DNA of 27,687 nt from the IMG/VR virus record IMGVR_UViG_3300010883_000321, positions 1 through 27,687 of that record, one strand, 5' to 3'. The notes under the pieces are model-generated. The model was not told the DNA's origin. It made no database searches and saw only the letters and a list, made by a program, of their open reading frames with translations. Both the position numbers and the translations under genes were made by a program. Below are positions 2,585 to 26,282 of the stretch, piece by piece; within the stretch, counting starts at the first letter, position 1; each line of letters starts with the position of its first letter. Origin of the DNA: a virus.

Positions 2585-5500
2585 CTAGTCTTCTCGACGC
2601 GCGGATCGGTCCTTCTTGTAGCCGCGAACCAGGTCATGCCAACGCCAGTTGTCCGCTTCGTCGTACATGGCGGCCAGCCCCGAGAAGGTTCTGTTGAGCT
2701 GTACCGCCGGCACTCTCCCGGTAATGGCGCCAGCCAGTAGAACGTACTTGGCGTACCGGCGGGCTATATCAGCGTACTGCGCATCCGGCTCTTCGTTTCC
2801 GAACTCATCGATAACTTTCTCAAGGCCCGCCAGAGACTTGCTTGCAGCATCAAAGCCGATCGTGCCGGCCCCACCACTGTAGCCGTAGCCGCTAGCCAAC
2901 CCGGACGCAATGTCCCGAACGACGGGGATGGTACCGAGAGCCGTCGCCACGGCATCTTTAGCGATCCAGTCCAGCATATCCTGCTTCTTTTCGTCCTTCT
3001 CATCCCAGTCTGGCAGGTCTCCCCTGATCAGGCCGGATGCTAGAGACTGCAGGGCCAGCAACACAAACAAGCGTGTGGCTGCTCTACTTGTCGAGGCCAC
3101 GGGAGTGCTCATCACGTTCTGAGAGAACTCCACCCCGACACTGCGCAGGACTGCGTATAGAGCGGAGAAGAAGGTGTAGAACATGGTCAGCCCCTTCACT
3201 ACACCCTTCTGCCGCTGGATAGCCGACAGATCCTTCAATCCGCCGGAAGACTGGCTGAGACGCACAACGCGGTCGGCGTATTTAATAGCCGCATCGGTGT
3301 CGCCTTTAGCCACACCCTCAACAATTCCGCGCAAAGCGCGGTTGTACCCGGCTGTCCATACAGGGATATCCACCGTGTAAAACTGCACCTCTGCGATTGC
3401 CTGCATGGAGAACCGCTGCACGCTTGTTACCGGGCCCTCTTTTGAGGACAGGCGCTTGAGCACATTGGAGACTTCCCGGTCCATACTCTTCCGCCGGCCC
3501 CGCATTTCGCCAGATATACTGATCACAAACTGTACATGGCTGGGGCTAAAAGCAGCGGCGACACCAGCAGCGATGTCTTTCTGCGCTACTACAATGCCGG
3601 CTGGGCCGTACCCGCTGTCCGCGAGGAGGCGGTCCTGCCCGTTGAAAAGACCCAGCGTCTGCATGGCCAGTGTGCTGTATGAGAAGCCGAGGACTGCGAC
3701 AGTCGTGTTGGTGTATATATGCTGGATAGCTTTCTGCCACCAACCAACCGGCGGGCTGTCGTTTCCGTTTGAAGCGAGGGCGGCCACCCACTTCGTAAGC
3801 TCGTCCGTGTACGCTATACCGACCTTGTTCTCCAACTCGGCTCGAATATCCCGGTCACCAAGTATCTTGTTTGCATTCCTCACGGCCTCGTAGTGCGTGA
3901 TGAAGTGGATGGTGTTGTCAAAACCAGTAGCCATCCGGCTGATGTCTAGGTCCACAGGTGCGGCGTATCCCGTTCTGGCCTTAGTCATGGAGCTGTTGAT
4001 ACTGGCCCGCCCCGTGTCGCCCTGCATAAGCTCCAGCGCCGTCTTTTGCTGCAGGTCAACGGCAACGCCGGCGATAGTGCGATCGTACATCATCGGGAAG
4101 TAGCCGCCCGTGATGTCTCCGAACTTAGTTGTGACAGTGCGCGGCTCTACCCTGTCCGGGGAGATCCCGTGCTCTCTGCGGTAGATGCCCTCTACCGTGG
4201 GGTACAATTTCTCGGCGTGCTTCCAGACGGCCCTAACAAGGTTCCACTCCTGCTCAGTCAGGTTATCGAGAGCGGCGTCAATCAACTCTTCGTTAACGTT
4301 CCACCCGGCTCCCTTGACTTTGGTCTTAACGTCGCCCGCCATACCCCGAATGAACTTGTCTAGGTTGCTCTCGTTGCCGACGTTGATGGCCATCATAATC
4401 AGATTGCCGCGATTGAACCGCATCCCCGGCTTACCGAGATCGCCGACGTCGACTGGCTTACCGAAGCTGCGCCGAACCTCCGTCGGAAGATCAGCTATCA
4501 GAGCTCCGATGAGCTTCGAGACCTCCTCCTGAAGGATATACTTGTCTGCGGCGGCCTTATTGAACGGCTCGTAGATAGTCTGGTGCCACGGCCCAAGGGC
4601 GCGCCCGTCGAGCGACTCGAGGAGGAACTCGACTTTAAGAAGTTGGGCGTCGAACAGCGCCGCTCCAGCGGCAGCAGAATATCTAATACGGTCATCTATC
4701 CGAAGACTGTCTGGTGAAGCTGCCTTGCCGCGCAGGCGAGACACCCTGGACTGCTTCATGCCGTCGAGCACGGCCAGAAGCTCCGCCTTGGACTCGGCAC
4801 GACTAAGCTCGTCGTCGCCTCGACGCACTTTGTTTGCCGCCCTACCCTGCTGCTCATAGCGCTTTATGGTGTCGTGAAGGTTTATGAACTGGCGGTAGCT
4901 AATTTCACTGACCGTGTTAGCTGTGTCGCCCGTGGGATTAACCAGCCAGTCAGGGACGTCGAGTATGGAGCCGTCAGCTTTCTCCCGCTCAACGATAAAC
5001 TCCTGCAGCGCGATGATCTCGTTGGCTCGGCTCTGTTTGCCGGCAGCGCCGCGGCCAAAATTTACGGCGGCAAGGATGCGGAGAATGTTGTCTACATACT
5101 CGGCCTCGATGCTGGGGAACTTCTTGCCCTTCTTCGTAAACTTCCGCATATAGCGGGATTTCTTCTCAATAGCTGCCTGGGCCTTCAAGGCCTCGGCGGC
5201 CATGTAGTGATTGACGAGGCGCTGGAACTGGTGACGGTAAGCTGAGACCCTATCCCCACGCTTCAGTGCGTCGCCGGCCAAGTCGGCGTGGCGTTTCTCG
5301 GCGGCAAGAAAGCGGTAGGGCCGGACCTGACCGCTGGGCATCTCCAGCAGACGGTCCCGGGCGTAAGCTCGGACAAAGGCCTGCTTGAAGGCTGGCTCAG
5401 ATGTACGGAGCGCCGTGAGTTCAGCGGCTAGAACCCGCGCCGTCCTCTCACTGTGCGCGCTGGCAAGCGCCGCGGCCTCTCCTCCGCCTTCTATTGATCC

Positions 5501-8500
5501 GTGCTCCTCCTCCATCTTGGCGTCGATAGCTTGTTCTACGGCCTGACCGTAAGGCTGCCTGCCGACAAGGTCGAGGATCATGGCGTCGACGTCGTCGTAC
5601 CCAAACGCCTGTGCGACAACGCCCGGAGACAGGCCGCCTTCCTCGTATACTGCCTTACTGTCAACGCGGGGGATGTCCGCCAGCGAGAAGCCCTCTGACT
5701 CAAGAATCTCCTTGAGAGTGGCTCGGTCCATGCGGTTTACCGCCTCTCCCTCGGGTAGCGTAGACCCGTCGGCGAGGCCTTGGTTGGTGAGGGCGTACAG
5801 CAGGCGGTACGCCGGCTCTGCTGCGACCTCTTGCGAAGCCTCTCCGCGCAGCGTCTCGCGCTCCTCCTTCCACCAGGCAGTGCGCTCCCGCCGCAGCTCC
5901 TTGATATGCTTGGCTAGCTGGCTCGCACGTCGGTCGTCTTTAGCCTCAGCAATCTGCTTCTGGTAGGCAGCAAACTGCGTCGGCGTCATACCGGCCTGCT
6001 CTGCAGTGCTGTACAGGGCGGCGAGCTTGTACTGCCCCTCGATCATAGCGATCTCCTCGTCGGAGGCGAGCATACGATCGACAACTGCGGTCACTTCTGC
6101 GGAGAATTGGACGTCTAGCTTGGAGCCGGCGAGCTTCGTGTAGACAGACATGACCCAGACTTTGAACGCCGAGAAGGCGGCAGCCAAGGACAGGCTCGGA
6201 GCGCGTCCTGTGGCAAAGTAATTTTCGACGCCCCGAGCAAACTGCTCGTGCATGGCGACGCTCAGGTAGCGGCTAGGCCCTGAGCCGCGCAGCTCGCCGG
6301 ATCTCGCGTAAGCAGAAACCTGAGCCTCGGTCATCTGCTGCAGGGCGGCGACGCTGTCCTTGTCCTTATCCTTCTTGGCGCGCCTGACAGCCTCCTCGCG
6401 CAGCTCTAGAGGGCGACTGGCCCACCAATCAGTAACGACCTTGAAGTCTCGCTGGAAGCGACCGCCCACGGCGAGAGCGTCTCCCTTTAGCTGCTCAAGC
6501 CAGAAGTGGCCGCTCTCGTGCAGGAAGGTAGTCGCATCGGCCTTCTCAAATATCTGGAGCAGGTTGACCGGGTCACCGTCCTGATCGTTGATTAAGTCTG
6601 AGGGGGTAAATCCGCCTCTGGGGCCGGCTGCTCCACGCTGCTGCTCGAAGGCTGTGGTTCCGCCTCGCTCGTACTGGTCGATGGCTGCGGCGAGCTCGCG
6701 GGACGCTTGAACCCTGACATCACGATACCGCTGCCGAGCCACTCCCGCACTTCCTGCGGGGTCATTTCTGTCACTGGCATAGTCGTAGTCCTTCTTCTCG
6801 GGGAAGGCCGCCTGTAGCCGAGCGGCCTTAACAGCATATTCTGACGCAAGCGCAACATCAACAGCGTCTGCGAAACTACGCGGATCAACACCCTCCGCCA
6901 AGATCAGGGTCATCTGACCTTCTATCGTGGACTGACCGCCGATCGGTGGGAAACCCTCGATGCCACGCAGGGTCTGGTAGATCGCGTCGATCTCCTGCAG
7001 ACTCTTGTCGCCGATCTGGATACGAACCGCCCCCGCCTCGAACGACCCCTCAAAAGCGTCGGCTGACAGGGCGACCATACTATCTTGAGACAGCACAAAG
7101 CCTACGGCATTAGCGACAGCAGCGGGGTCGCCGGAGGTCAGGCGTAGAGAGAACGACGGGTTGGTGTCGTCTTGGTAGCTACCGATTTGAGGAGATACTG
7201 AACCTTCAGCTCCCGCTGCTTCTAAGACAGAGGGTAGGACACTCTTCGATACGGTGTCGCTGATTGCGAGCTGCGCTGCGGGGGGAAGGGCGTTCCACCG
7301 GGCGGATAACTCTACATTATTAGGGTCCGGGGCGACCTCAAATATAACGTCGCCGACGAAGTCTACTTCTTGGAAGAGCTCTCGTCCTTCGCCCGCAGGT
7401 TCCGAGCCAACCTGCCCAGCCCCGCGTATGTCTCCGGGTTCGACCAGTCGAGCATCTTGTCCAGCGACGGCTCGCTGTCCAGATCCTCCTGCTCCATCTC
7501 CCGCAATTCCTTCGACTTCATATCCTTGGCTCCTAAATATTCGCGCAAACGCGGTGTCATAACTTTCGTTCAGGGCGCTGGCGGTGACGATGGGTACACC
7601 ATTGTCGTCCACCTCCAGTCTGTCGCGCAGGGCACCCCACAGCTCCTTCTCAGGATACCACAACAGAGCCTGCATGTCAGCCGTGGTGACATCGGTGCCC
7701 CGCTCGGAGAGGATCTCGATAGCTCTGGCCCCGGCGGCCTCCACCTGCTTGCGCTGGGTGCCGTTGGTGATCTGGTCCAGCGGGGTGGCTAGGTTGGCCC
7801 TGATTGCCTTCGCTGCGCGAGCCCATGTCGGCTGAAGCTCATCCGGGATGCTGCCCTTATCGTACTTCTTCTGCAGAGACTTGTATTCGACAGCCCACGC
7901 CTTGAGGAGCCGCTTGGAGTAGGCGAGGAGAGCGGCGTCGGTTCTTCCGTACTCTGCCTTCCACACCTCGGGTGCCTTGAGGCCCGCCAGATCCGATAGG
8001 AGGGCCTCGCCATCCCGCACTACCTTGTTGAGGCGGCGGGTCTCTGCGTCGAAGTCCTTCTTGGTCTGGTTCGTGGTCTCGGCTTGGCCCGTATGATCGG
8101 CCTGCGCAGCCAGAGCGGTGTCGAGTTCAGCGCGGGCGATATCGATGAGATCTGCTGAGCCCTGCTTTTTCGATCGGGACTTAGCGACCGCAGCCTTGAG
8201 GCGGCGACGCTGAGCGGGGATAGCCGAGGGTAGGCCGATACTCTTACCAGTGAGACGACCCCAGGTGCGGCGCATCCACAGATCAATTGTCAGGGGATCG
8301 AAGTTGCCGTTGAGGTTCTGCCAGAAGCCGTTGCCTATCTTCGGGCCGAGGGTCGAAGAGCCGTAAACCACGACATCCATCGCCGTGTTGCCGGGGGGGC
8401 TGTAGGGGATACCCGCAGCCTTCATATCTACGACCCACTCCTTGACGGTCTTCTTCTGGCGGAATAGGGCGTCTAGGTTGGCCAGTTTTTCTTGCGGGGT

Positions 8501-11500
8501 CGCTCCGTCCATAGCGGCCAGCATCGGCTTGAACTTTTTGAAGTTCTTGGCCATCGCGGCTTGCTTGTCGCCTGTGCCCCACGCCCCCTTCATGGAGTAG
8601 TCACCCGCCTTTACCATCTCCACCATTTCGGAGAAGGCTGCATCGGCAGCGGCACTGTTTTTAGATACGTCGAGGTTCTGGGACGTTACCGCCATAATGT
8701 AGGTGAACGCGAACCGTGCGTTGCTCGACGTACCGAAACCTGCTGCCTCGGCGGCGGCGTCGTCGGTGAGCATCGGGTACTTGATAGACGCGGTGGTTAT
8801 CGCCTTGAGGACGGCACCTGAGTACCAGTCGGCGGCGTTGCCTGTGCTTTCGAGGGCGAGCTGCACCTCCGCAGCCATCATCCGCCCGAGCTGGTCCAGT
8901 TGCTCCGTGGAGAGGGTCGCCGTGAAGTCGGTGATGGCATCACCCTCGAACTGCGCCTCCAGCCACTTCGCTGCGTTCTCGTTGCTCGCCAGCCGCCTGG
9001 TCGGCAGAGCGCCGGCGCGGTAGATCGGGTTGACGCGGGCGGCCTCTTCCTCGGTAAGGCCGAGGGACGCTGGGTCTTGGACGGTGGCACGGGCCTGCTC
9101 TAACGCACCGTCAGGAGCGTCTTGGTACAGGATGTTGTCGTCGGAACTCGGCCGGCGGCGGCCCATCTCGGATCGAGCCGCAGTTAGGTCGCGTTTGGCC
9201 TGCTCGTAACCGCCTTGCCCTGTTGCGCCCTCCGCCTCAAAAGCGGCTATTCTTTCAAGCCTGTTTGCCTCAAGGGAGGCCAGCTCGGGGTCCGAGAGGT
9301 CGCTTATGCGAGGCGCGTTGGGCAGGCCCTCCACCACAAAGTCGGAGCTAAGTGGATCAGATACCTCGAGCTCACTTCCAAGCAGCAACTCTTCGCCGTT
9401 TGGCAACCGAACAATGACGCCCCCCGCCTCGCTTCGCGCGACGACCTCAAGGTTCTGCTGGTTACCCTCGGAGTCAAATACGGCAATCTGCCCCTCTGGC
9501 GCAGCCTCTCGTGTAGGGGTGGTGGCCGCGGGTTGTCCACCTAAAATCTGCAGGTTATCGGCCTCAAACAGCGCAGCAGCGTCTACTGGCCTGCCGGTCT
9601 CCTCGGTCATCCTGATGGCGCGAGTAGCGTAACGCTGCGCGGTGAGCAAGCCGAACAGGCGGCTTTTGTTGGCGTCATACTTACCAGTAGCTTCAAGCTG
9701 CCCTGCTACCTGATCTTGGATCTGAGCCATATCGGTGTTGAGCTTAGTCAGCGAGGCGTCGTCCAGGTTTGGAGCGAGCTTATTCCGTGTGCGCTCCTCT
9801 AGCTGCTGCTGGATCTGGTCACCAATACCGGCGTCGACATACTCACGAGCCTCGGACGGTGTCATGCCGTTGGCCTCAAACGCCGTGTGCTCGATGAGGG
9901 CGTCGAAGCCGTCCTTCCCCAGAATGTGGCGGACAAACGTGGCGGCGGATACCTCGACAGCGCCGCCCTCTGCGGCTAGGCGCTTTACGTCTTCGGGGTC
10001 CAGGCCGAGCGTCTGAGCGGTTTCTGCGCCCTGCTCGAATAGCGGACCGGCAGCGATGTAGACAGTATCGACACCCTCGCTGGCGAGCTTCTCTCCTAGA
10101 ACGCTGGCGACCGTGTCCAGTTTTACCAGCGGGATACCCGCGATCAAGCCTTTCAGATTGGTGGCTCCTTTGAGCCACTGCTCGGCCTTGCGTGCGTCCG
10201 CGGCGCGCTTGGCGTCATGGGCACCCGCTGTGTAGCCCTCAATAAGGGTGGTGGGGACACCCATACCCGCGCTGAGGGTCGACTCCAGCACGGCTTGCCG
10301 TATATCGAGTTCCCCTGTAGCTTGAAAGCCGGCAAAGCCCTCGCCAACACCCTCAAAAACGGTATTAAAAGTGGTTCGCTCAGCAAGTTGGAGGGTCAGG
10401 GATCTGGCTTTGAAGAAGGTGCCTCCGCGTAAATACCCGAGGGTAGCGAGCTGCACCCCGGCGATAGCCGCCCCCCGCTCCCGTCCGTAGGTTACCCAAA
10501 GCCTCTGCGCGTCTGGATCTCGCATGAAAAGCTGCACACCGACGGGGGTGTTTAGATCTATGCCAGTCTTCTTCTTCAAGAACGCGAAACGCTCTTCGTC
10601 TGCACGAAGATTCTCCGCTTGAAATTGACCGAACGTGCCGACCGTCATACCCGCGCGCGCGCCGAAAAGGCGCGTTGCTGCGGCGCTGGCCCCCAGAATC
10701 GGAGCATTACGCGCAAACATCTCAGCCGCCGCCGCAAAGAACCCGGCAGGGTCTTCATACACCAGACGAAGAACAGCAAAGTCGCTGTCGGCCTCCATGG
10801 CTTTCCGCATAAAATCAGAGGCTACCTCCCCTGACGGTAGCTCAGCCGCGGTTTTTCTCATCACTTTAAGGATGGCCGCAGCTTCCATTAAAGAATCTGC
10901 CCCCAAAGTATCCGCGGTCTCGGTGTTAAAGCCGCCGGCGTAGTAGACCCGTGCAACCTTAGTAACGGCGGCGCTAACACCGTTCGCAAGGTCCAACGGA
11001 GTCCAGATATACGGAATGAAGGTATTGGCTGAAATTCCCCCCGGGGGGAAGGCGACCGCAGTGAACGTGCCTACGGCTGTGTCCCACGGAGTAGTGCGCG
11101 CTGCCCGTGCAACCGCGGCATCAACGCCGGTGCTAGATAAGCCGAACCCCTGTAATAGCTCTGCGACGCCCAGGGATAGCATGTTACTCACGCCCCGAAT
11201 GAAGCCTCTGTCCCGTTGCGCAATAATTGCTTCTGGAGTGAGCTTGGGTAGCAGCATCCGCATCATAGTGTCTACCTGACCCTCAGCGGCCAGCACGGGG
11301 TCGATCTCGCCGCGCAGAATGGCGGCCTCCTCGACGTTTTCTGCCATGCGCTTGCGGGTGACACTGTCGAGCTCCAGAGCTCTCACTAGCCCAGGATGCT
11401 CTAGGGCCCGTGCGAGCTGGTCGTCGGTTAGATCGTCCACGGGGATTCGAGCTGCCCTGGGGAATACATCTGCGCCGTCCGCGCCATTGAAGACGGGCAC

Positions 11501-11968
11501 ACCACCCGACTTTTCGTAGACGTCCCTGACCATTTTAATGAGGGCGGCTCGGTTTGCGGGGATGTCCTCTGTCAACGTTAAATTCTGGAGGACAGCGAGC
11601 GAGCGCCGGTCTATCCTCGCTCCCCATTCCTCGGCCTTCGAGCCGACCAGAGGCCCGCCGAAGACGTTCCACTGCCGTGGTGGGACCGCGGGGGGCTGCT
11701 CCTTGAGCGGGCGGCCTAGAGGATCTGTAATTTCCTGACGCGGGCCTACTTCTTCGGGGGGGCTTTCCGCAGTGACGCCAAAATAAAACAGGCCGTCCGA
11801 TGTAGTCGGCTCAGGCGGCTTAGTGCGGCGACCGGCAGCGGCCTCAAAATCAAACGAAGTGGCAGCGGGCTTTGGGGCGGGAGCAGAAGTGTCCGGCGTA
11901 AACACGGGGACGTCTTGCTGCTCATCCTTTTTTCCAGCGGCAGCGCCGTAATCAAATGTGTCAGTCAT
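2585..11968 (-). CDS. Giant virion/ejection protein with embedded metallopeptidase-like domain, 3127 aa
   Basis: Occupies the position of the last internal virion protein (T7 gp16) and is about twice that length. The N-terminus (1-60) is low-complexity and contains FDYGAAAGKK (5-14) and FDFEAAAGRR (39-48). Residues about 400-600 are Ala/Gly-rich and partly hydrophobic. Around 1060-1240 is a conserved large-phage-protein domain ending GFWQNLNG then TIDLWMRRTWGR. At 1817-1821 is HESGH with glutamates at 1908 and 1915 in HEQFARGVENYF, a zincin-like metallopeptidase signature common in phage polyvalent proteins. Residues about 2240-2750 and the C-terminus resemble DarB-type or other very large ejected phage proteins. 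I see no T7-type lysozyme/transglycosylase signature and no methylase or helicase motif. ATG 11968 overlaps the upstream stop by ATGA. Likely packaged in the head and ejected with DNA. The peptidase activity is inferred from motif only. Confidence 0.85.
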   Translation of the reverse strand: MTDTFDYGAAAGKKDEQQDVPVFTPDTSAPAPKPAATSFDFEAAAGRRTKPPEPTTSDGLFYFGVTAESPPEEVGPRQEITDPLGRPLKEQPPAVPPRQWNVFGGPLVGSKAEEWGARIDRRSLAVLQNLTLTEDIPANRAALIKMVRDVYEKSGGVPVFNGADGADVFPRAARIPVDDLTDDQLARALEHPGLVRALELDSVTRKRMAENVEEAAILRGEIDPVLAAEGQVDTMMRMLLPKLTPEAIIAQRDRGFIRGVSNMLSLGVAELLQGFGLSSTGVDAAVARAARTTPWDTAVGTFTAVAFPPGGISANTFIPYIWTPLDLANGVSAAVTKVARVYYAGGFNTETADTLGADSLMEAAAILKVMRKTAAELPSGEVASDFMRKAMEADSDFAVLRLVYEDPAGFFAAAAEMFARNAPILGASAAATRLFGARAGMTVGTFGQFQAENLRADEERFAFLKKKTGIDLNTPVGVQLFMRDPDAQRLWVTYGRERGAAIAGVQLATLGYLRGGTFFKARSLTLQLAERTTFNTVFEGVGEGFAGFQATGELDIRQAVLESTLSAGMGVPTTLIEGYTAGAHDAKRAADARKAEQWLKGATNLKGLIAGIPLVKLDTVASVLGEKLASEGVDTVYIAAGPLFEQGAETAQTLGLDPEDVKRLAAEGGAVEVSAATFVRHILGKDGFDALIEHTAFEANGMTPSEAREYVDAGIGDQIQQQLEERTRNKLAPNLDDASLTKLNTDMAQIQDQVAGQLEATGKYDANKSRLFGLLTAQRYATRAIRMTEETGRPVDAAALFEADNLQILGGQPAATTPTREAAPEGQIAVFDSEGNQQNLEVVARSEAGGVIVRLPNGEELLLGSELEVSDPLSSDFVVEGLPNAPRISDLSDPELASLEANRLERIAAFEAEGATGQGGYEQAKRDLTAARSEMGRRRPSSDDNILYQDAPDGALEQARATVQDPASLGLTEEEAARVNPIYRAGALPTRRLASNENAAKWLEAQFEGDAITDFTATLSTEQLDQLGRMMAAEVQLALESTGNAADWYSGAVLKAITTASIKYPMLTDDAAAEAAGFGTSSNARFAFTYIMAVTSQNLDVSKNSAAADAAFSEMVEMVKAGDYSMKGAWGTGDKQAAMAKNFKKFKPMLAAMDGATPQEKLANLDALFRQKKTVKEWVVDMKAAGIPYSPPGNTAMDVVVYGSSTLGPKIGNGFWQNLNGNFDPLTIDLWMRRTWGRLTGKSIGLPSAIPAQRRRLKAAVAKSRSKKQGSADLIDIARAELDTALAAQADHTGQAETTNQTKKDFDAETRRLNKVVRDGEALLSDLAGLKAPEVWKAEYGRTDAALLAYSKRLLKAWAVEYKSLQKKYDKGSIPDELQPTWARAAKAIRANLATPLDQITNGTQRKQVEAAGARAIEILSERGTDVTTADMQALLWYPEKELWGALRDRLEVDDNGVPIVTASALNESYDTAFARIFRSQGYEVEGIAGDGAGGSGQRAVAGQDARLVEPGDIRGAGQVGSEPAGEGRELFQEVDFVGDVIFEVAPDPNNVELSARWNALPPAAQLAISDTVSKSVLPSVLEAAGAEGSVSPQIGSYQDDTNPSFSLRLTSGDPAAVANAVGFVLSQDSMVALSADAFEGSFEAGAVRIQIGDKSLQEIDAIYQTLRGIEGFPPIGGQSTIEGQMTLILAEGVDPRSFADAVDVALASEYAVKAARLQAAFPEKKDYDYASDRNDPAGSAGVARQRYRDVRVQASRELAAAIDQYERGGTTAFEQQRGAAGPRGGFTPSDLINDQDGDPVNLLQIFEKADATTFLHESGHFWLEQLKGDALAVGGRFQRDFKVVTDWWASRPLELREEAVRRAKKDKDKDSVAALQQMTEAQVSAYARSGELRGSGPSRYLSVAMHEQFARGVENYFATGRAPSLSLAAAFSAFKVWVMSVYTKLAGSKLDVQFSAEVTAVVDRMLASDEEIAMIEGQYKLAALYSTAEQAGMTPTQFAAYQKQIAEAKDDRRASQLAKHIKELRRERTAWWKEERETLRGEASQEVAAEPAYRLLYALTNQGLADGSTLPEGEAVNRMDRATLKEILESEGFSLADIPRVDSKAVYEEGGLSPGVVAQAFGYDDVDAMILDLVGRQPYGQAVEQAIDAKMEEEHGSIEGGGEAAALASAHSERTARVLAAELTALRTSEPAFKQAFVRAYARDRLLEMPSGQVRPYRFLAAEKRHADLAGDALKRGDRVSAYRHQFQRLVNHYMAAEALKAQAAIEKKSRYMRKFTKKGKKFPSIEAEYVDNILRILAAVNFGRGAAGKQSRANEIIALQEFIVEREKADGSILDVPDWLVNPTGDTANTVSEISYRQFINLHDTIKRYEQQGRAANKVRRGDDELSRAESKAELLAVLDGMKQSRVSRLRGKAASPDSLRIDDRIRYSAAAGAALFDAQLLKVEFLLESLDGRALGPWHQTIYEPFNKAAADKYILQEEVSKLIGALIADLPTEVRRSFGKPVDVGDLGKPGMRFNRGNLIMMAINVGNESNLDKFIRGMAGDVKTKVKGAGWNVNEELIDAALDNLTEQEWNLVRAVWKHAEKLYPTVEGIYRREHGISPDRVEPRTVTTKFGDITGGYFPMMYDRTIAGVAVDLQQKTALELMQGDTGRASINSSMTKARTGYAAPVDLDISRMATGFDNTIHFITHYEAVRNANKILGDRDIRAELENKVGIAYTDELTKWVAALASNGNDSPPVGWWQKAIQHIYTNTTVAVLGFSYSTLAMQTLGLFNGQDRLLADSGYGPAGIVVAQKDIAAGVAAAFSPSHVQFVISISGEMRGRRKSMDREVSNVLKRLSSKEGPVTSVQRFSMQAIAEVQFYTVDIPVWTAGYNRALRGIVEGVAKGDTDAAIKYADRVVRLSQSSGGLKDLSAIQRQKGVVKGLTMFYTFFSALYAVLRSVGVEFSQNVMSTPVASTSRAATRLFVLLALQSLASGLIRGDLPDWDEKDEKKQDMLDWIAKDAVATALGTIPVVRDIASGLASGYGYSGGAGTIGFDAASKSLAGLEKVIDEFGNEEPDAQYADIARRYAKYVLLAGAITGRVPAVQLNRTFSGLAAMYDEADNWRWHDLVRGYKKDRSARRED

Positions 11969-19092: not shown

Positions 19093-19542
19093 TTAGTTAG
19101 TTGCGTCTGGATACGCGACCCAGCCCTTGGGATCGTATGTCAGATACGCATCGATCGTTCCGCCGGTGAGCGCAGCAGTGGCCGTCGTAGTGACGATACC
19201 GAGGTAACGCTCGTAGGTAGCGATTGGAAGCGCGATCATAATCTGCTGAGAATTAGCAGTCAGACCAGACAGGGCGATAGCCGCCGTCGAGAAGTGCGTA
19301 GTTTGCGTGCCGTCGACCGCGATGGCAGCCTGGGCGTCTGACGCAAGGGTGAACACAACAGTGGCAGATCCGCCCGACGTCACAGCAGCGTTGACCCGAA
19401 GCACGAGGTAGATGGGTTGTCCGTTGCCTACATCAGAGGTCACAGAACCAAGGTCAATAACGTCGCCGATGAGGTCGCTGTTAGTGCCCGAGGTGTCGAG
19501 AGCGGTGGCGTCCGCAAATTCAAGCCGTTCGTCCATAATCAT
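19093..19542 (-). CDS. Capsid cement/decoration protein, Bbp16-like, 149 aa
   Basis: The protein begins MIMDERLEFADATALDTSGTNSD and continues with a beta-strand-rich fold: IDLGSVTSDVGNGQPIYLVLRVNAAVTSGGSATVVFTLASD, a mid-strand region and a C-terminal IDAYLTYDPKGWVAYPDATN. This is the pattern of the Bbp16 family of Bordetella phage BPP-1, a jelly-roll cement protein that trimerises on the capsid surface and stabilises it. It follows the major capsid gene by 27 bases, as bbp16 does in BPP-1. The ribosome binding site AAAGGA lies about 9 bases upstream of ATG 19542. The terminator at 19051-19080 ends this transcript. Confidence 0.87.
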   Translation of the reverse strand: MIMDERLEFADATALDTSGTNSDLIGDVIDLGSVTSDVGNGQPIYLVLRVNAAVTSGGSATVVFTLASDAQAAIAVDGTQTTHFSTAAIALSGLTANSQQIMIALPIATYERYLGIVTTTATAALTGGTIDAYLTYDPKGWVAYPDATN

Positions 19543-19569: not shown

Positions 19570-20568
19570 TTAAGAAACAGTCGCTTCGTTGCCACGAAGG
19601 GCATCGCAGCGACGGATCGGGATACCACCCCACGAGGTCTGCATCGTACCACCAACCAAGTCGACACTAAGGGTCGATGAGCTGACAGCGGATGAGGTCT
19701 GCCGGCGAAGCATGGACAGGATGGATTTGTCCATGTACCAAGCGCATCGACCAGCCGAAGTGTTAGGCAGCTCGGTCCACGCCTGGTGCATCAGGTCGTT
19801 GATGATGGCCCCGCTCGCCGCGTTGTACGTCAGAGCAGAGCGGTCAATGTTGGCAATACGAACAGCGTAACGCCAATCGCGAACCGACAGGCCCACATCC
19901 CAGCGATAGTGGGTGCGATACGCCTGCATCCGGCCATTAGCGCCGTCAGCGTTCTCAAGGGTGACTTCACCCAGATCGCGCTGCTGAACACCCGCCATAG
20001 AGCCTTTGGGGATAATACCGTGGCAGGTATTGGGGCCCCAACAGATCAACCAGATCGAGGCGTTGTCCGAACCCGACCCACCGCCGGCAATGATGTTGTC
20101 ACCATTTTCAGCAGAGAGCGAGTTGTACCGGGCCGAGAGGCCGGTGAACTCTTCCGGGGCAGTGCTTTCATCGCCATAGAACAGCGTCGACGCAAACTCC
20201 TGGTTCATGCCTTCGATGTGCGGACGATCTTCCTGCAGACGGAACGAGGCAGGGTTTCCGGCCATGTCAACAAGGGCCTTATCGACTTCGGAATAATCCT
20301 CCATCATACCAGTGTTATCGGTGACCTGGACCGCACGGCTCTTCGTCGGCTGGACGCCGCCGTAGAGTTTCCGCCACGTCGGCGTAGGCAGACCAGAGCG
20401 GATCGAAGTCCGGTGGCCCGTAGTGAGGTTGCCCTCAAGGAACGTCATGTCCAGGAGGATTTCGTTGGTGGCGTTGAGAATTTCAACAACATCAGCAATC
20501 GACCCGTCGGGATCGGTGACCTTCGCGAGGTCAGCGAGCGTCGGGTTAGTCACGCTGAGAGTAGCCAT
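19570..20568 (-). CDS. Major capsid protein, HK97-fold (Bbp17/epsilon15-like), 332 aa
   Basis: Main shell protein. Length and sequence fit the epsilon15/BPP-1 capsid family: N-terminal LTNPTLADLAK-type segment (VTNPTLADLAKVTDPDGSI), VVEILNATNEILLDMTFLEGN, TGHRTSIRSGLPTPTWRKL, QVTDNTGMMEDYSEVDKALVDMAG, SFRLQEDRPHIEGMNQEFASTLFYGD (the E-loop/spine region), and a C-terminal MDKSILSMLRRQ and IRRCDAL segment. AAGGAG sits 9 bases upstream of ATG 20568 and overlaps the scaffold stop, which favours strong, linked expression. Flanked by scaffold before and cement protein after, as in BPP-1. Confidence 0.93.
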   Translation of the reverse strand: MATLSVTNPTLADLAKVTDPDGSIADVVEILNATNEILLDMTFLEGNLTTGHRTSIRSGLPTPTWRKLYGGVQPTKSRAVQVTDNTGMMEDYSEVDKALVDMAGNPASFRLQEDRPHIEGMNQEFASTLFYGDESTAPEEFTGLSARYNSLSAENGDNIIAGGGSGSDNASIWLICWGPNTCHGIIPKGSMAGVQQRDLGEVTLENADGANGRMQAYRTHYRWDVGLSVRDWRYAVRIANIDRSALTYNAASGAIINDLMHQAWTELPNTSAGRCAWYMDKSILSMLRRQTSSAVSSSTLSVDLVGGTMQTSWGGIPIRRCDALRGNEATVS

Positions 20569-20580
20569 GGTTATAACTCC

Positions 20581-21234
20581 TTAATTGGCTGCGAACATAG
20601 TTGGGTACATCCTCTCCAAGCTATCTCGGCCTTCGATTTTGGTGTCTCCGGTGACGAGGTCGCTCTCAGAAATTGCGCGCCCAACACGATAGAAGAGGCG
20701 GATAACCTCCGGGTGGCTCCCCAGACCAAGCCCTTCCGGGTTAGTGTCTGAGGGGGCGTCGATCAGTTTGGCCAGTTGTGGACTACCGAAAGTATCGATC
20801 GCCCGCTTCGCCAGCCCAAGGTTCTCGTCGAGGGACTCCCCGCCAAGCTCCTTGTCAGCTTTTGTTTCGTCAGCCCAGTGACTGATCCGCTCACTAAACT
20901 GCGCTGACATCTCCTGCATTGCCGAGGCACTGCGCTTGATGTCGTACTCTACAAGCTGCTGAAATTGATTCTGAGTAAGGCCCAGCTCCTTGGCAGTCTC
21001 GCCAAAGACCTCGATCTTACTGGGATCGATCTCAGCACCTTCCGGTGACTTGAACTCGTACTTTTCAGGTACGGCGTCACCGTCGGCTCCTTCGCCCTCG
21101 TCACCCGACAGCAGGGTCTTGGATTTCTCTTCGCTGGCGCCTTCTTCAGGCTGCTCGGCGATTGTCTCGTCTGTTGTCTCGTCGGCAGTGACCTCCTCGG
21201 CCACTACCTCCTCAGCTACTTCTTCGTCTGCCAT
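20581..21234 (-). CDS. Scaffolding protein, 217 aa
   Basis: Assembly scaffold that guides capsid polymerisation and is then removed. The first 60 residues are extremely acidic (runs of E/D with few other residues), followed by KYEFKSPEGAEIDPSKIEVFGETAKELGLTQNQFQQLVEYDI, a helical segment conserved in podovirus scaffolds, and a C-terminal helical region (SHPEVIRLFYRVGRAISESD). The last residues are ERMYPTMFAAN. Scaffold C-termini usually bind the coat protein, so this tail is the likely capsid contact. ATG 21234 is preferred over ATG 21246 because GGAGGAG overlaps the codons in between. It lies directly upstream of the capsid gene. The RMYPTM peptide is shared with the small protein at 23332-23601. 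Confidence 0.9.
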   Translation of the reverse strand: MADEEVAEEVVAEEVTADETTDETIAEQPEEGASEEKSKTLLSGDEGEGADGDAVPEKYEFKSPEGAEIDPSKIEVFGETAKELGLTQNQFQQLVEYDIKRSASAMQEMSAQFSERISHWADETKADKELGGESLDENLGLAKRAIDTFGSPQLAKLIDAPSDTNPEGLGLGSHPEVIRLFYRVGRAISESDLVTGDTKIEGRDSLERMYPTMFAAN

Positions 21235-21237
21235 GTT

Positions 21238-21244
21238 CTCCTCC
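21238..21244 (-). promoter_or_regulatory. Ribosome binding site GGAGGAG deciding the scaffold start
   Basis: GGAGGAG on the minus strand lies 3 bases from ATG 21234 at its 3' end (5 bases from the GGAGG core). It falls inside the 4 codons between the two possible ATGs, so initiation at 21234 (MADEEV) is more likely than at 21246. Confidence 0.75.
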
Positions 21245-21290
21245 ATTGGCTAGTCTAAACCCCGGCTGGGGCGGGTATGTGTGCGTTGGG

Positions 21291-21584
21291 TCAACCATCG
21301 AAATGGTTCTCCTCAAGCATCTTCATATACGCCGTCGAGTTGAGGTCTCTGAGCTGCTCGTGCAGCCGCAATCCCACAGACCGGGCGCCCTCGTTAAACG
21401 CAGTGGAGTCGAAGCTCCCCGGCACAAAGCTGGGAGAGTTGGCGTGGCTGTGCCCATATATCAATGCGTAGAGCCACCGCCGCCCGCGGGGTGCAGAAAC
21501 AATGAACTCGATATCCTTCTGCAGGTCATCGTCCACGCGCTGAGCCTTGGCCACTTGTTCCGGGTCGCTGGCGTCATACGTCAT
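21291..21584 (-). CDS. Bbp19-like phage protein, 97 aa
   Basis: A small, mostly helical protein with the sequence RRWLYALIYGHSHANSPSFVPGSFDSTAFNEGARSVGLRLHEQLRD, matching the family motif RRwLydLiy...D...sF..g..D.TaFnEG.RnvGL.L...L seen in Bbp19 of Bordetella phage BPP-1 and many podoviruses. The position between portal and scaffold genes is also the same. The role is not established; it may be a minor head protein. ATG 21584 overlaps the portal stop by ATGA. Confidence 0.82.
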   Translation of the reverse strand: MTYDASDPEQVAKAQRVDDDLQKDIEFIVSAPRGRRWLYALIYGHSHANSPSFVPGSFDSTAFNEGARSVGLRLHEQLRDLNSTAYMKMLEENHFDG

Positions 21585-23329
21585 ACGGAAGCCCCCGGCC
21601 CCTGCCCGCCAAGGCCGCCTAGCAGGTTGGTCAGCGCGTTGGGGTTCTGGGTATCCGTCTCGCTCAGTACCTTGGCGCTCTGTGCCAGCTTGCCGGCCTC
21701 TTCGCGCTGGTGGACCGCCTGCTCAGCCTCAGCCTTAGCCTTACGCTTGGTAGCGACAGCAGCGCTTGAGATGATGACGTCCGGGCTGGTCCCGAGGATG
21801 TCGGAATACTGCCGGAGGGCCTCGTCGGCGTCGACGCCGTCCACGATCTCCGGGAACATGGCGGACATATTGCCCGCGAACCCGAGCACGCGCTCAAGGC
21901 TGGACGCGGCGACAGCCTGCTGGGCCTGTGCAAGCAGGGAAACGTACTCCACTTCCAGGTCTTCGCCTTCGAGAGCGTCCGGTATAGGGGGGAGGAGACC
22001 ACCCTCCAGGGCGTACTCAAACACGTCGTCCAACAGGGGGTCCAACAGTTCGACATTGATCCGTTGGAGCACAGGCCCGAGCAGCACTAGTTTCTCTGAG
22101 TGGCGTTCAACCACCTCGGTAGCCGTCATCTGACGGCGATCCGAGTTGATCATCATAGCGAATAGGTCGGCGTAGAAGCCGCGCTGCACGCGGTTCTGAA
22201 CCTCCTGGATGTCCATCATAAGCTCATTGATGCGCGGCTGGACTTGGTACGCCGGGGCAAAGCCCTGCGCGCCCTGCAGAGGGTCGACGTATGTCGTCTG
22301 CCCAGGCAGCACCGTCGACGGCTTACCCTTCAGGCTGGTCGGTGCGACCATCGGGGGGTTGACCATTTTGTCGATGGCCTGGGCCTTGCGCTTCTGCTGG
22401 TGCTGGAGCTGCTTGATGTCGCCGAGGTTGTCCATTCCGGGGGATCTGCCGTAGACCTCACCGCTGAGGACGTCCCAGCGGGGCACATAGGCGGGGAACT
22501 TGTTGTATCCGCTCTCCATGAGGAAGGCGTCGCTCTCGGACGACAGCTCGAAGTAGCAACTCTTGAACGGCATGTTCTTGCCGTCCTTCTTGTCATACTC
22601 GCGATCGGCCATGAGGCGAGGCTCGATGACGTGGACGATCTCGACCCGAGCGTCGTAGTTGCCGTTGTCCCACAGCTTCTTCGTCGCCTTGCTGGCCCCG
22701 CTCCAGTCCATAGACCCGGAGACTTTGTGGACGAACTTCTGCACGATCTGTCCGACAGTCATCGTGAAGTGGCGCCCAAGAGTGTCCACAACACCAAGAT
22801 CGTTCTCGGCGATGACGTACTCTCCGGCAGTGAACGGGCGGAACCGGATCACACTCTCGAACGACGGCTGCCGGTACAGAGGAGCAGTGCCGAACGAACC
22901 GAGTTCTGTGTAGACCGTATGGATCGAGTTGTAGAAGTTAGACTTGTGCAGGATTGCGCGCTCAATCTTCTCCACCTGAGCCAGCCACGCCCTGACCTCG
23001 CCGTCGTCCATCAGATCATCGCGCACCTTGCGCCGGTGCCACGGCCGTGCCGGCGACGTCATACCCGACATCAGACCAGCAGCCATCGTCCGCAGCGCCT
23101 GCGTACCAGTGCTGTCGATAATCTTGGTCGTGCGCTTTCGGCCCTTGCTATTCTGGCTCTCGGTAAGATAGCGGCCGCGCCGCGGGGCGATGTAGTCCGT
23201 GATCTCCATCCAATGAGAGCGCCACGAGGAGCGGTCGCCCTCAAGCTGAGTATAGCGGCGGTACAGCGCGGACTTCTTACCGCGCAGCGGGACGGTCGTG
23301 TAGGTGTTGTCGATGCTGGGTAATGGCAT
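21581..23329 (-). CDS. Portal protein (podovirus head-tail connector), 582 aa
   Basis: Dodecameric portal at one capsid vertex through which DNA enters and leaves and to which the terminase and gp11-like adaptor dock. Family signatures: LEGDRSSWRSHWMEITDYIAPRRGRY near the N-terminus, the diagnostic TQALRTMAAGLMSGMTSPARPW (about 75-96), FYNSIHTVYTELGSFGTAPL, DRQMTATEVVERHSEKLVLLGPVL-type segment (NSDRRQMTATEV), and INVELLDPLLDDVFEYAL. This is the bacteriophage head-to-tail connector family of T7-like phages; T7 gp8 has 536 residues. The C-terminus is Gly-rich (GGLGGQGPGASV). Preceded by the small acidic protein and followed by the Bbp19-like gene with an ATGA overlap. Confidence 0.95.
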   Translation of the reverse strand: MPLPSIDNTYTTVPLRGKKSALYRRYTQLEGDRSSWRSHWMEITDYIAPRRGRYLTESQNSKGRKRTTKIIDSTGTQALRTMAAGLMSGMTSPARPWHRRKVRDDLMDDGEVRAWLAQVEKIERAILHKSNFYNSIHTVYTELGSFGTAPLYRQPSFESVIRFRPFTAGEYVIAENDLGVVDTLGRHFTMTVGQIVQKFVHKVSGSMDWSGASKATKKLWDNGNYDARVEIVHVIEPRLMADREYDKKDGKNMPFKSCYFELSSESDAFLMESGYNKFPAYVPRWDVLSGEVYGRSPGMDNLGDIKQLQHQQKRKAQAIDKMVNPPMVAPTSLKGKPSTVLPGQTTYVDPLQGAQGFAPAYQVQPRINELMMDIQEVQNRVQRGFYADLFAMMINSDRRQMTATEVVERHSEKLVLLGPVLQRINVELLDPLLDDVFEYALEGGLLPPIPDALEGEDLEVEYVSLLAQAQQAVAASSLERVLGFAGNMSAMFPEIVDGVDADEALRQYSDILGTSPDVIISSAAVATKRKAKAEAEQAVHQREEAGKLAQSAKVLSETDTQNPNALTNLLGGLGGQGPGASV

Positions 23330-23331
23330 CG

Positions 23332-23601
23332 CTAGGCCTGCATGGTTGGGTACATACGCGCAGCAGCGCCGGAGGATTGATCTCCGTCTTCCATGAACTC
23401 CATATCCGTGATCTCCAGCGTGGCAGACGTCCCGTCCTGGCTCTCCACAACGGAGGCCACGCGAACCTTGCAGTGGATCTCGCGCTCGCCGCCCACCTCG
23501 CCCACGTCGCCCAGCTTCTTGAGCTGGTCCTGGTCAAGGTACAGCGTGGGGAGGCGCTCCTCCTCCTCGCCCATCAGAGTTCCGCCCATATCCTGCCTCA
23601 T
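23332..23601 (-). CDS. Small acidic conserved phage protein with scaffold-like C-terminus, 89 aa
   Basis: A compact protein with an acidic start (MGEEEERLPTLYLDQDQLKKLGDVGEV), a central beta-rich segment (EIHCKVRVASVVESQDG, SATLEITDMEFMEDGD) and a flexible Ser/Gly/Ala linker ending ARMYPTMQA. Small proteins with an SATLEITxMEF-type core are often found next to the portal gene in podoviruses; their function is not clear to me. The last residues RMYPTM repeat those of the scaffold protein, which suggests that both contact the same partner, probably the coat protein or portal. Starts at 23589 and 23574 are also possible. The ATG at 23601 is two bases after the upstream stop. Confidence 0.75.
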   Translation of the reverse strand: MRQDMGGTLMGEEEERLPTLYLDQDQLKKLGDVGEVGGEREIHCKVRVASVVESQDGTSATLEITDMEFMEDGDQSSGAAARMYPTMQA

Positions 23602-23603
23602 GA

Positions 23604-23840
23604 TCAGTTGCCCAACAGGGTTTTGTTAGCCGTCTGAGCAGCGTCCAGCGGGGAGCTGCCTGTCTTAACGGTGCCGGCCATACCGCGCTGCAGCTTCAGG
23701 CGGCGCTTCTCATCATCACGCGCCTTGACGACGGCGGGGTCGGCCTTTGTAGGCGGCGGCGGCAGCGGAGCGGGCGGCGGCGGCGGGGACGGCTGGCTGC
23801 CTCCAAAACCGGGCAGTGTGAAGAGGCGCTTGAGCTTCAT
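23604..23840 (-). CDS. Possible internal-start product, 78 aa (C-terminal part of the 199-aa gene)
   Basis: An in-frame ATG at 23840 is preceded by GGAAGGG about 8-9 bases upstream, a better ribosome binding site than that of the full gene. The product (MKLKRLFTLPGFGG, a 15-residue Pro-rich stretch, a basic KARDDEKRRLK helix, and a KTLLGN end) looks like a stand-alone small protein type known to me as a separate gene near portal genes in other phages. Nested synthesis or a recent in-frame fusion are both possible. Confidence 0.45.
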   Translation of the reverse strand: MKLKRLFTLPGFGGSQPSPPPPPAPLPPPPTKADPAVVKARDDEKRRLKLQRGMAGTVKTGSSPLDAAQTANKTLLGN

Positions 23841-24203
23841 GGTCAGACCCTTCCCGGTCAGGGAGTTGTGCAGTTGGTTTGGGGTTATGGCCCACGATCG
23901 AATGGCGGCTACAACTTTAACGTGACCCACACAGTTGTTCAGGATAACTGGAGACAGGACCGGAGCTTTGCCGCGAGAGATTGGGACCACGGTGTAGCCC
24001 TGCCGTTGGTAGTGCTCCGACAGGTCGTAGTCCGCCAAAGCCTCGGTGCGGATTAGCGGGGTGCCCTGGTGCCAGTTGTAGCTGAACCACGCATTGCGCT
24101 CGGTGTCCTTCACGGCGCACCAGACGTGCCGCCGCTCGCGGTTGAGCAGCCACGCTAGGGGGTGCTCATTTTCTACACCAAATATAACAAGGCAATCCAC
24201 CAT
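23604..24203 (-). CDS. Two-part conserved phage protein (Cys/His domain plus Pro-rich tail), 199 aa
   Basis: The first ~120 residues match a small domain found beside terminase/portal genes in many podoviruses: ENEHPLAWLLNRERRHVWC, FSYNWHQGTPLIR, YQRQGYTVVPISR, and NNCVGHVKVVAAIRSWAITPNQLHNSL, where the NCVxxVK ... TPxQL pattern resembles an Nlp/Cys-peptidase-like active site without proof of catalysis. The last 78 residues (from M at 23840) form a second small protein type: MKLKRLFTLPGFGG, a proline run, KARDDEKRRLKLQRGMAGTVKTGSS and TANKTLLGN. A strong GGAAGGG lies just upstream of that internal ATG, so the second part may also be made separately. ATG 24203 is chosen over a TTG at 24248; neither has a good ribosome binding site. 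Confidence 0.7.
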   Translation of the reverse strand: MVDCLVIFGVENEHPLAWLLNRERRHVWCAVKDTERNAWFSYNWHQGTPLIRTEALADYDLSEHYQRQGYTVVPISRGKAPVLSPVILNNCVGHVKVVAAIRSWAITPNQLHNSLTGKGLTMKLKRLFTLPGFGGSQPSPPPPPAPLPPPPTKADPAVVKARDDEKRRLKLQRGMAGTVKTGSSPLDAAQTANKTLLGN

Positions 24204-24257
24204 GGCTTGACATACTAGATGATGTGTGGGGCGCGTGTAAACACGCAAGATGTTGCG

Positions 24258-24287
24258 TCAGAGGGGCTCATATTCAGACGCCGTGTG
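24258..24287 (-). repeat. 30-bp imperfect direct repeat at terL 3' end (encodes HTASEYEPL-stop)
   Basis: It matches 25721-25750 at 24 of 30 bases. Four of the six differences are silent third-position changes in SEYEPL codons. The two copies bracket the terL coding region exactly. Confidence 0.7.
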
Positions 24288-25724
24288 GTGCTGCGTCCCG
24301 GCGAATCCGATCCTCGATGGGTAGACCGGCAGGACGTAGGTCAGTGCCAGAGCGTCGGCCAGATCAGGCGACGACACGCCGCGGCTCTTCGCGGCCTCCT
24401 TGCTCTCCAGCTTGATCTCGTTTTTCAGAGTGTAGCCGTACTCAATGCCCGTCAGATCCGTGATCAGGTCGGGGTTGTCGGGTAGCCTGATGCCGTCGAT
24501 GATCGCCTGCTTCAGGTTGCCCCACATCTGCGCTCGCAGGTTCGCGTACCCTCTCTGCGTCGCCTTGCTGCCAAAGTTTATCTCGACGACGTCCAGGCCG
24601 AGCTGTCTACATCGATCGACAACACCGCCGCCCACCCCGCCGCCGTCGATGAACACGGTGTCGGGGTTCTTAGCCCTCGCGATCTCGACGACGCGGGCAG
24701 ACAACTCCATCGTGTCCATGCCGCGGAACGTATGCCACCCTTGGCTCTCCGCGTCCCGGCCTTGCCGCAGGCAGATCACAGACTGGTCGTCGCCGAACCG
24801 CGCGACGTCGACACCCATGACCAGCGGGTCGTGCGGCTGCACGGCAGCCGTCAGTCCGACGCAGGCGCGGGCAGCCTCGCTCGGGATGAACTGCAGCTCG
24901 CCGGCGGACGGGAACTGCCCCAGAACCCGGACCTTCACGAAGTCACTGTCAATTCCGTAGTCGGCGATCCACGTCTTGAACAGGCGCTTGTTTGTGATCT
25001 TGACATCTCTGCTGTCAATGTGGCGACGGATGTAGCGATGCCTGAACCGCCCAGCCATATTCTCGTAGAAGCGCCCGGTGTTTCGCGTCGGGTTGCCGAA
25101 ATCGAAGGTCATTGGACTTCCGTCGGTTAGCCCACCCTCTCGAACCTCGAAGACCTTGTCGGGCACCGCTGACGCCTCGTCGAAAATATAAAACGGCGTA
25201 GCAGACGCAGCGTGCAGTCCCGCGAACGCCTCGCTGTTTTCCTCCCTACAGGTCTGAGCATCAACTCGCCACGTCTCTCGGTGGTCGTTGTGGTACATGT
25301 TCATCGAGCCAGCGCCCCCCGCGTTGACCGTCCACCAGTGCTTCGTGATACCGAGCTCGTGCCACTTGGACAGTTCCGAGACCGTCTTGGTGCGGAGCTG
25401 CGTGTTAGTGTTAGCCGTCACGATCCCCTTAGAGAACGGCCGGGTGTCCATGATCCAGCGGATCAGCCACGCAGTCAGGGCGGACTTACCGATGCCGTGG
25501 CCGCTCGCCGTGCTGAACTGAATGGGGTCGACCGCGGTGTGGCCGTCGAAGCGTCTCTTTTTGACCTCGTCGCCAACCTCGTTTAGGAAGTCGCGCGCCC
25601 AGTCGTCGGGGCCCGCAAAACCCTCGAGCTGCCCACTTCCCCATGGGTAGCTGAATAGGACGTGGCCCAGGGGGTCGGCGTAGTACTCGGAGACCTGCTC
25701 CGCAAGATCGACGTCGATCGTCAC
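24258..25724 (-). CDS. terL: Terminase large subunit, 488 aa
   Basis: Packaging motor ATPase and nuclease. ATPase: Walker A GHGIGKS at 75-81 (K80), Walker B FYIFDEAS with D182-E183, coupling region TFDFGNPTRNTGRFYE. RNase-H-like nuclease: MGVDVARFGDD (D306), VFIDGGGVGGGVVD (D360) and SPDLADALALTY (D454/D457). All expected acidic residues are present. I prefer GTG 25724, which overlaps the upstream TGA (GTGA), to the GTG at 25778, which would overlap the zinc-ribbon gene by 58 bases; neither has a strong ribosome binding site. The C-terminus HHTASEYEPL repeats the end of the adjacent zinc-ribbon protein. TerL C-termini often contact the portal. Confidence 0.95.
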   Translation of the reverse strand: MTIDVDLAEQVSEYYADPLGHVLFSYPWGSGQLEGFAGPDDWARDFLNEVGDEVKKRRFDGHTAVDPIQFSTASGHGIGKSALTAWLIRWIMDTRPFSKGIVTANTNTQLRTKTVSELSKWHELGITKHWWTVNAGGAGSMNMYHNDHRETWRVDAQTCREENSEAFAGLHAASATPFYIFDEASAVPDKVFEVREGGLTDGSPMTFDFGNPTRNTGRFYENMAGRFRHRYIRRHIDSRDVKITNKRLFKTWIADYGIDSDFVKVRVLGQFPSAGELQFIPSEAARACVGLTAAVQPHDPLVMGVDVARFGDDQSVICLRQGRDAESQGWHTFRGMDTMELSARVVEIARAKNPDTVFIDGGGVGGGVVDRCRQLGLDVVEINFGSKATQRGYANLRAQMWGNLKQAIIDGIRLPDNPDLITDLTGIEYGYTLKNEIKLESKEAAKSRGVSSPDLADALALTYVLPVYPSRIGFAGTQHHTASEYEPL

Positions 25725-25750
25725 AGTGGCTCGTATTCCGACATCGTGTG
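25721..25750 (-). repeat. 30-bp imperfect direct repeat at zinc-ribbon gene 3' end (encodes HTMSEYEPL-stop)
   Basis: Partner of 24258-24287. It ends the zinc-ribbon gene and overlaps the preferred terL start codon. Confidence 0.7.
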
Positions 25751-25936
25751 AGCGACGGGGGCGTCCGGCGGTCGGCACTGTCCCGCTGGATGGTGCGGGT
25801 CAGCCGACGTCGACACCTCTTTCGCGCCGCACGTCCGGCAGATGCGCATCGACCCACTCCCCGGCATCGGCGGCCCCCAATCATGCGCCCGCGGAGCCGA
25901 GTTAGGGTGAGCCGCTCGCGCTAGAGCGGCGGTCAT
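25721..25936 (-). CDS. Zinc-ribbon-like small protein between terS and terL, 71 aa
   Basis: The protein (MTAALARAAHPNSAPRAHDWGPP...) carries ICRTCGAKE, a C-x2-C knuckle, then HH and a further Cys (DPHHPAGQC), so a small metal-binding fold is likely. Position between small and large terminase suggests a packaging accessory; the DNA- or protein-binding role is inferred. The last nine residues HTMSEYEPL nearly equal the TerL C-terminus. ATG 25936 forms an ATGA overlap with the stop of the microprotein frame, and the TGA overlaps the terL GTG. A longer form from ATG 26002 (93 aa) is possible but has no ribosome binding site and would be entirely overlapped by the terS end and the microprotein frame. 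Confidence 0.65.
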   Translation of the reverse strand: MTAALARAAHPNSAPRAHDWGPPMPGSGSMRICRTCGAKEVSTSADPHHPAGQCRPPDAPVAHTMSEYEPL

Positions 25937-25992
25937 TTCTTGGAAGGCTTCGGCTTCGGCATAGGCTTCGTCTTTTTTCCGTAGGCCATCAT
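25933..25992 (-). CDS. Candidate Lys/Pro-rich microprotein, 19 aa
   Basis: Frame MMAYGKKTKPMPKPKPSKK-stop. The first ATG shares one base with the terS stop (TGATG) and the stop shares bases with the next ATG (ATGA), giving an unbroken coupled chain. GGAG lies 5 bases upstream of the first ATG and 8 of the second. Over half the residues are Lys or Pro, unlike random frames here. Short MAYGKK-type basic proteins occur in phage packaging/structural regions as far as I recall. It overlaps the longer, weaker-start alternative of the zinc-ribbon gene in another frame, so only one of these gene models is likely to be translated fully. Confidence 0.5.
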   Translation of the reverse strand: MMAYGKKTKPMPKPKPSKK

Positions 25993-26282
25993 CAGTCTCC
26001 ATTCACTACGCGGAGACGAGCGACGCGATCACGTCCCTCGTGCAGCCGCTCGGTCATCGCAGTTACGTCAATATTGCGGTTCTCGTTGACGTTCTCGTTG
26101 GGCAGCACCTTCGCAAGCAGCGTGACAAACGTGCGCGGCTCGTCCGCCGCCAGCATCGTCAGATAATCAGCTCCGCCAGCGCGCTCGAACGCCTCAAGGA
26201 TCGCAGACTTCATGTCATGCGTGGTGCGGTTCGGCGTGCCTTTCTTCCGGCCGCCGAACTTTTTGCCAGTTGTGTTAGCCAT
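25992..26282 (-). CDS. terS: Probable terminase small subunit, 96 aa
   Basis: DNA-recognition subunit candidate. The basic N-terminus ANTTGKKFGGRKKGTPNRTT has the GGRKKGTPNR motif typical of phage small terminase/DUF5681-type proteins, followed by a helical core HDMKSAILEAFERAGGADYLTMLAADEPRTFVTLLAKVLPNE, again typical of such proteins, and a C-terminal helix TAMTERLHEGRDRVARLRVV that could mediate oligomerisation. Immediate upstream position to terL supports the call. It lies 7 bases after the resolvase gene. ATG 26282 has only a weak AGGGTGA upstream. The stop overlaps the microprotein ATG (TGATG). Confidence 0.72.
   Translation of the reverse strand: MANTTGKKFGGRKKGTPNRTTHDMKSAILEAFERAGGADYLTMLAADEPRTFVTLLAKVLPNENVNENRNIDVTAMTERLHEGRDRVARLRVVNGD

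Follow-up and report, generated by a model that had tools for sequence, protein, structure and literature searches.

A small acidic head-module protein of BPP-1/epsilon15-type podoviruses carries the C-terminal peptide of the putative scaffold

Why should two unrelated proteins of one phage head module end in the same short peptide? We met this question in the window, by which we mean the whole stretch of DNA analysed (27,687 nt; IMG/VR record IMGVR_UViG_3300010883_000321, positions 1 to 27,687). The protein in the scaffold slot, encoded directly upstream of the major capsid protein gene, ends in LERMYPTMFAAN, and an 89-aa protein of the same module ends in AARMYPTMQA. The common RMYPTM had been pointed out in a preliminary description of this DNA; our analysis confirmed it and placed both open reading frames as in Table 1. 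The head module is encoded entirely on the minus strand in the order terminase, 214-aa protein, 89-aa protein, portal, 97-aa protein, scaffold-slot protein, capsid, cement, and DNA coding for the motif occurs at the two gene ends and nowhere else in the window. Both proteins are acidic (pI ~4.2), with net charges of -33 for the scaffold-slot protein and -11 for the 89-aa protein. Elsewhere in the window, a single 3127-aa ORF (2585-11968) takes up a third of the sequence and occupies the place of the large internal virion or ejection proteins of relatives.

Table 1. Positions of head-module features and tail-coding segments in the window.
Feature	Position	Strand	Family or remark
Cement protein	19093..19542	-	PHROG 427; BPP-1 Bbp16/epsilon15 gp8 family; gene distinct from the 89-aa gene
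Major capsid protein	19570..20568	-	PHROG 212; BPP-1 Bbp17 family; proposed common partner of both tails
Scaffold-slot protein, 221 aa	20581..21246	-	PHROG 458; epsilon15 gp6/BPP-1 Bbp18 family
RMYPTM codons of scaffold tail	20596..20613	-	DNA search
97-aa protein	21291..21584	-	PHROG 528; epsilon15 gp5/Bbp19 family; control family, without motif
Portal	21581..23329	-	PHROG 332; between scaffold-slot and 89-aa genes
89-aa Gp10-like protein	23332..23601	-	PHROG 825; homologue of epsilon15 gp10 and BPP-1 Bbp20
RMYPTM codons of 89-aa protein tail	23341..23358	-	DNA search
214-aa protein	23604-24248	-	Gene before the 89-aa gene; tail NKTLLGN
Terminase	24258-25778	-	Tail SEYEPL
93-aa protein	25721-26002		Overlaps terminase gene; tail SEYEPL

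When the 20-aa tails of 20 window genes were replaced by random tails of the same composition, a shared 6-mer arose in 8 of 2000 simulations, and two such pairs, as the window has with RMYPTM and SEYEPL, in 0 of 2000. These simulations, together with the clade permutation described below, rule out a chance match; the comparative evidence across relatives is far stronger than the within-window figure. We searched the ORFs of all fetched loci with profiles of the two families and found both genes in 164 loci, which yielded 109 non-redundant pairs; a scan of genome contigs gave one locus. All 109 Gp10-like tails carry [LMFI]Y near the end and all 109 scaffold tails carry [LMFW][YF] (Tyr in 106, Phe in 3), so that the paired motif is conserved in every non-redundant genome with both genes. 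A lack of such pairs in relatives, by which the preliminary description would have been refuted on its own terms, was thus not seen. The usual form in both families is A-x-x-[LM]-Y-[PG], at a median distance of ~4-5 residues from the C-terminus. The residues around the tyrosine differ from phage to phage and agree within each: the two proteins end in RMYPTM/RMYPTM in the window, DAFYPDGEDD/SAFYPKK in epsilon15 (common AFYP), AQRLYGASSM/ARRLYAASNM in BPP-1 (common RLYxAS), SAAETLYG/SAAEVLYG in phiV10 and RAAKFYAN/RAAKLYDK in BcepC6B. In loci L184, L185 and L187 the scaffold has MFP in place of MYP and the small protein retains its Tyr. Among the loci fetched is also Limnohabitans phage DC33 (PQ492659.1, L106), which is recorded as Inoviridae, yet carries BPP-1-like podovirus head genes.

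The motif is largely confined to these two families. Within the last 18 residues, [LMFIW]Y was found in no capsid protein and no gp3-type protein, in 1% of terminases, 1% of tail-tubular proteins, 2% of portals, 5% of Bbp19-type proteins and 6% of all ORFs. Cement tails reached 34%, but with the pattern [KTN]FY[AP]SGF, and were rejected as motif carriers since register and context differ. When the annotated head genes of complete genomes were scored, epsilon15 and phiV10 each gave convincing values for scaffold and gp10 and for no other gene. In BPP-1 a high score was reached by bbp20 alone; the scaffold tail of this phage is a profile outlier and was not among the best six listed. No further convincing carrier was found in four complete genomes. 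Gp10-like proteins of loci L104, L123, L137, L138, L179 and L182 have two tandem [LM]YG copies, 17-21 residues apart (in L104, ...ATALYGAGSEGSRINNLSNALYGGG), an arrangement that fits a modular binding peptide.

Do the two tails merely share a tyrosine, or do they change together? We compared them with one representative per clade and the Tyr column excluded. Across 11 clades with <55% core identity, tails from the same genome were more similar than tails from different genomes (mean BLOSUM 11.6 vs 1.75), and none of 20000 permutations gave a value as high (p<5e-5). The same-genome match was also significant with 32 clades, and with only 4 clades p was 0.04. Aligned with hhalign, the Gp10-like and scaffold profiles match in their last 14 columns only. 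Wherever relatives offered enough context, the small gene was found within the phage head module. Its place there depends on the lineage: it may follow the terminase, the portal or the cement gene, or precede the portal. Because its position varies in this way, a shared gene neighbourhood does not explain the match and was rejected as its cause. The same four places speak against the earlier suggestion that the 89-aa protein is portal-proximal.

We apply the name scaffold to the epsilon15 gp6/Bbp18 family on the grounds of its gene position, charge and helicity. AlphaFold2 predicts a long helical body for the window protein, followed by a tail made of a helix (R207-M213), Y214 and a helical turn (P215-F218), with pLDDT ~79 falling to 50 at the end. 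A fold search returned no solved structure resembling it, hhalign gave no homology to T7 gp9 (probability 0.3%), and the shared tail was not found in T7. Database entries for epsilon15 gp6, BPP-1 Bbp18 and their relatives carry the name 'protease' or 'endoprotease'. The model consists of helices throughout, and the search gave no protease match. For the 89-aa protein, AlphaFold2 predicts a core of one helix and a beta hairpin and a tail with a short helix (G78-M83), Y84 and a turn (P85-M87), at pLDDT ~50. The two predicted tails thus have a helix-Tyr-turn pattern in common, although for the small protein its confidence is low. The best PDB match to the small fold was no better than E=0.85, VIA gave none with Z>=2, and in BFVD only its own family was matched.

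We then asked which partner might read both tails, using the cross-similarity between the small-protein tail of one genome and the scaffold tail of another among 31 representatives. This measure was associated with the identity of the capsid proteins (partial coefficient 0.52, a value not reached in any of 400-500 permutations), and showed no positive association with that of the portal, the cement protein, the Bbp19-type protein or the core of either tail-bearing protein. The capsid association held in 7 of 8 variants; with ten representatives it lapsed and scaffold-core identity was higher instead. Core identities are all intercorrelated, so that the link suggests, but does not prove, that the capsid protein is the partner. 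A scan of capsid-protein columns for contact residues gave weak candidates only (Bbp17 Y187, M31, E76 and F118), on which we do not build. An alternative that we regard as unlikely is that the tail marks head precursors for sorting or turnover and is read not by the capsid protein but by, for example, a chaperone, a protease or the portal. Short C-terminal motifs often act as tags, and the C-terminal hooks of the P22 scaffold, which bind the coat N-arm, also touch the portal (PMC12005531). However, the tail cross-match follows capsid identity and not portal identity, the BPP-1 capsid proteins are reported to be uncleaved (PMC3863775), and a tag for degradation only fits poorly with gp10, which was putatively identified by epsilon15 virion proteomics (PMC9207676).

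The small protein belongs to a known family. It matches PHROG 825 over residues 20-86 (E=8.3e-7, profile search), as do 25 of 25 aligned family members, epsilon15 gp10 and BPP-1 Bbp20 among them. The Pfam family PF21628 ('Gp10-like, Major coat protein-like') is matched by 21 of these 25 (best 6e-51), with no match for the window protein at E<=0.1. The core of the alignment reads KLG ... VG ... LxITDM; the window protein shares KLG, LxITDM and the tail tyrosine, Tyr84, which, together with only two other residues, is invariant across 25 Gp10-like sequences with 24% mean column identity. In the literature searched we found no description of a scaffold-like tail in this family. The family's 'major coat protein-like' annotation derives from an assignment now considered wrong: gp10 was formerly modelled as an outer capsid 'staple' of epsilon15 (PDB 3J40), and a re-analysis in 2022 found that the staple density fits a 130-aa protein and not gp10 (PMC9207676). 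On the historic assignment one could regard the small protein as decorating the capsid from outside, with a tail that resembles that of the scaffold only because both touch conserved capsid surfaces. PDB 3J40, Pfam PF21628 and NC_004775 (epsilon15p10) still label gp10 a staple or 'major coat protein', and the assignment was repeated in a 2025 paper (PMC12391199). Besides the reassigned density, the 3.5 A map of BPP-1 contains only Bbp17 and Bbp16, with Bbp16 as the second capsid protein (PMC3863775), and the window carries its own Bbp16-type gene, that of the outer cement protein in Table 1, so we consider decoration very improbable. Because this homologue of the 130-aa protein is a separate gene, the staple role that had been suggested for the 89-aa protein is not supported, and with the density reassigned the Gp10-like family is left without an established place in the virion.

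Matching tails could also make a common helical bundle, and it has to be considered that homotypic tail contacts serve mutual binding or co-assembly of the two proteins. Such contacts do not predict a link to capsid-protein identity. Moreover, the scaffold of Ab31 has the motif and no Gp10-like gene is detectable in this phage, and the same is true of Kp4865-1 in the region read. The small protein is therefore neither the primary partner of the motif nor universally needed, and homotypic pairing as the reason for the match seems to us quite improbable. Finally, the gene ends might owe their likeness to gene conversion or to common descent, with no functional meaning. The 14 of 15 identical MYPTM bases in the window could be cited for this, yet we find it scarcely credible, as the match persists over clades of <55% identity and four gene orders, and identical tail residues of 39 representatives use the same codon in 60 of 165 cases (68.8 expected). 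Since the residues are shared without an excess of shared codons, it is the peptide that is maintained, and DNA copying does not account for the match.

The second pair of shared tails, proposed earlier for SEYEPL, turned out to be real. The terminase and the 93-aa protein overlapping it both end in this peptide, and both ends are kept in relatives. Large-terminase tails there have the form [DE]Y[DEN]P[FYLW] (69 of 76 by the pattern [YH]-x-P, and several more with EFNP), and the tail [DE]Y[DE]P[LIF] is found on 93-aa protein homologues from 14 other loci. The 93-aa protein is perhaps a mimic of the terminase tail, acting perhaps at the portal. A conserved C-terminal peptide is also seen in the slot of the 214-aa protein: NKTLLGN in the window, GKTLLGQ in epsilon15 gp3, GKSTLLGQ in Bbp22 and TKTLLGG in Ab31.

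Peptide sharing between assembly proteins has precedents. In 80alpha/SaPI1 procapsids, cryo-EM revealed that the scaffold and CpmB bind one cleft of the coat protein through the helix-and-hook that both have at the C-terminus; mutating this motif in the scaffold is lethal, and the two proteins compete (PMC5644958). Here, too, a small protein and a scaffold share a C-terminal motif, and coat binding would be the counterpart. CpmB, however, is encoded by a satellite and redirects capsid size, whereas both genes considered here are phage genes and form a widespread pair. The motifs also differ (RIIK in CpmB, AxxLY[PG] here), as do the N-terminal domains, a helical dimer in CpmB and a predicted helix with beta hairpin in the 89-aa protein. 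In herpesviruses, the UL26/UL26.5 scaffold and protease have the same C-terminal capsid-binding residues; binding is cited for the last 25 residues (PMC12005531). They resemble our pair in being two assembly proteins with the same presumed or known capsid-binding end; their tails, however, come from overlapping reading of one gene, whereas here two unrelated genes have tails that covary. In T4, the capsid targeting sequence is a short peptide that sends internal proteins into the prohead; it is N-terminal and is removed by the prohead protease, unlike the tail peptide described here, which is C-terminal and gives no sign of cleavage.

By analogy with SaPI1 CpmB and the 80alpha scaffold, both tails most likely bind one site on the capsid protein. 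The preliminary description had proposed the small protein as a second ligand for the coat site of the scaffold, and the pattern fits this proposal, the paired motif being conserved and tail similarity tracking capsid-protein identity. From these sequence comparisons we consider it probable that the 89-aa protein is a second, phage-encoded capsid-assembly ligand, which docks a scaffold-like hook in the same site of the capsid protein. The protein would consist of a small acidic domain and a C-terminal copy of the coat-binding hook of the scaffold, that is, a short helix followed by [LM]-Y-[PG]. During procapsid assembly, the major capsid protein would receive both hooks in one and the same site on its inner face. 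The small protein may occupy a subset of these sites as a minor scaffold, or it may stay, or take over, when the scaffold exits; it might in this way assist, compete with or replace the scaffold. The binding of the tails to the capsid protein, a common and internal site for both, and the timing are what we infer. A more daring version, which we put forward tentatively and hold to be possible rather than probable, is that the Gp10-like family is a built-in competitor of the CpmB kind. It would fill part of the inner coat sites, set curvature or trigger scaffold release and remain in the virion, and tandem hooks would bridge neighbouring subunits.

What is new here is a CpmB-like sharing of tails that is encoded by the phage itself and is widespread. 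Through this proposal a widespread family, displaced by the reassignment of the epsilon15 staple density, acquires a role that can be tested. Furthermore, sequence alone marks the probable coat-binding peptide of the scaffold for HK97-like capsids of the BPP-1/epsilon15 type, for which we found no scaffold-coat structure. Two unrelated proteins in which one short peptide is kept in step over many lineages represent a clear example, found in nature, of a coevolving linear motif of capsid assembly.
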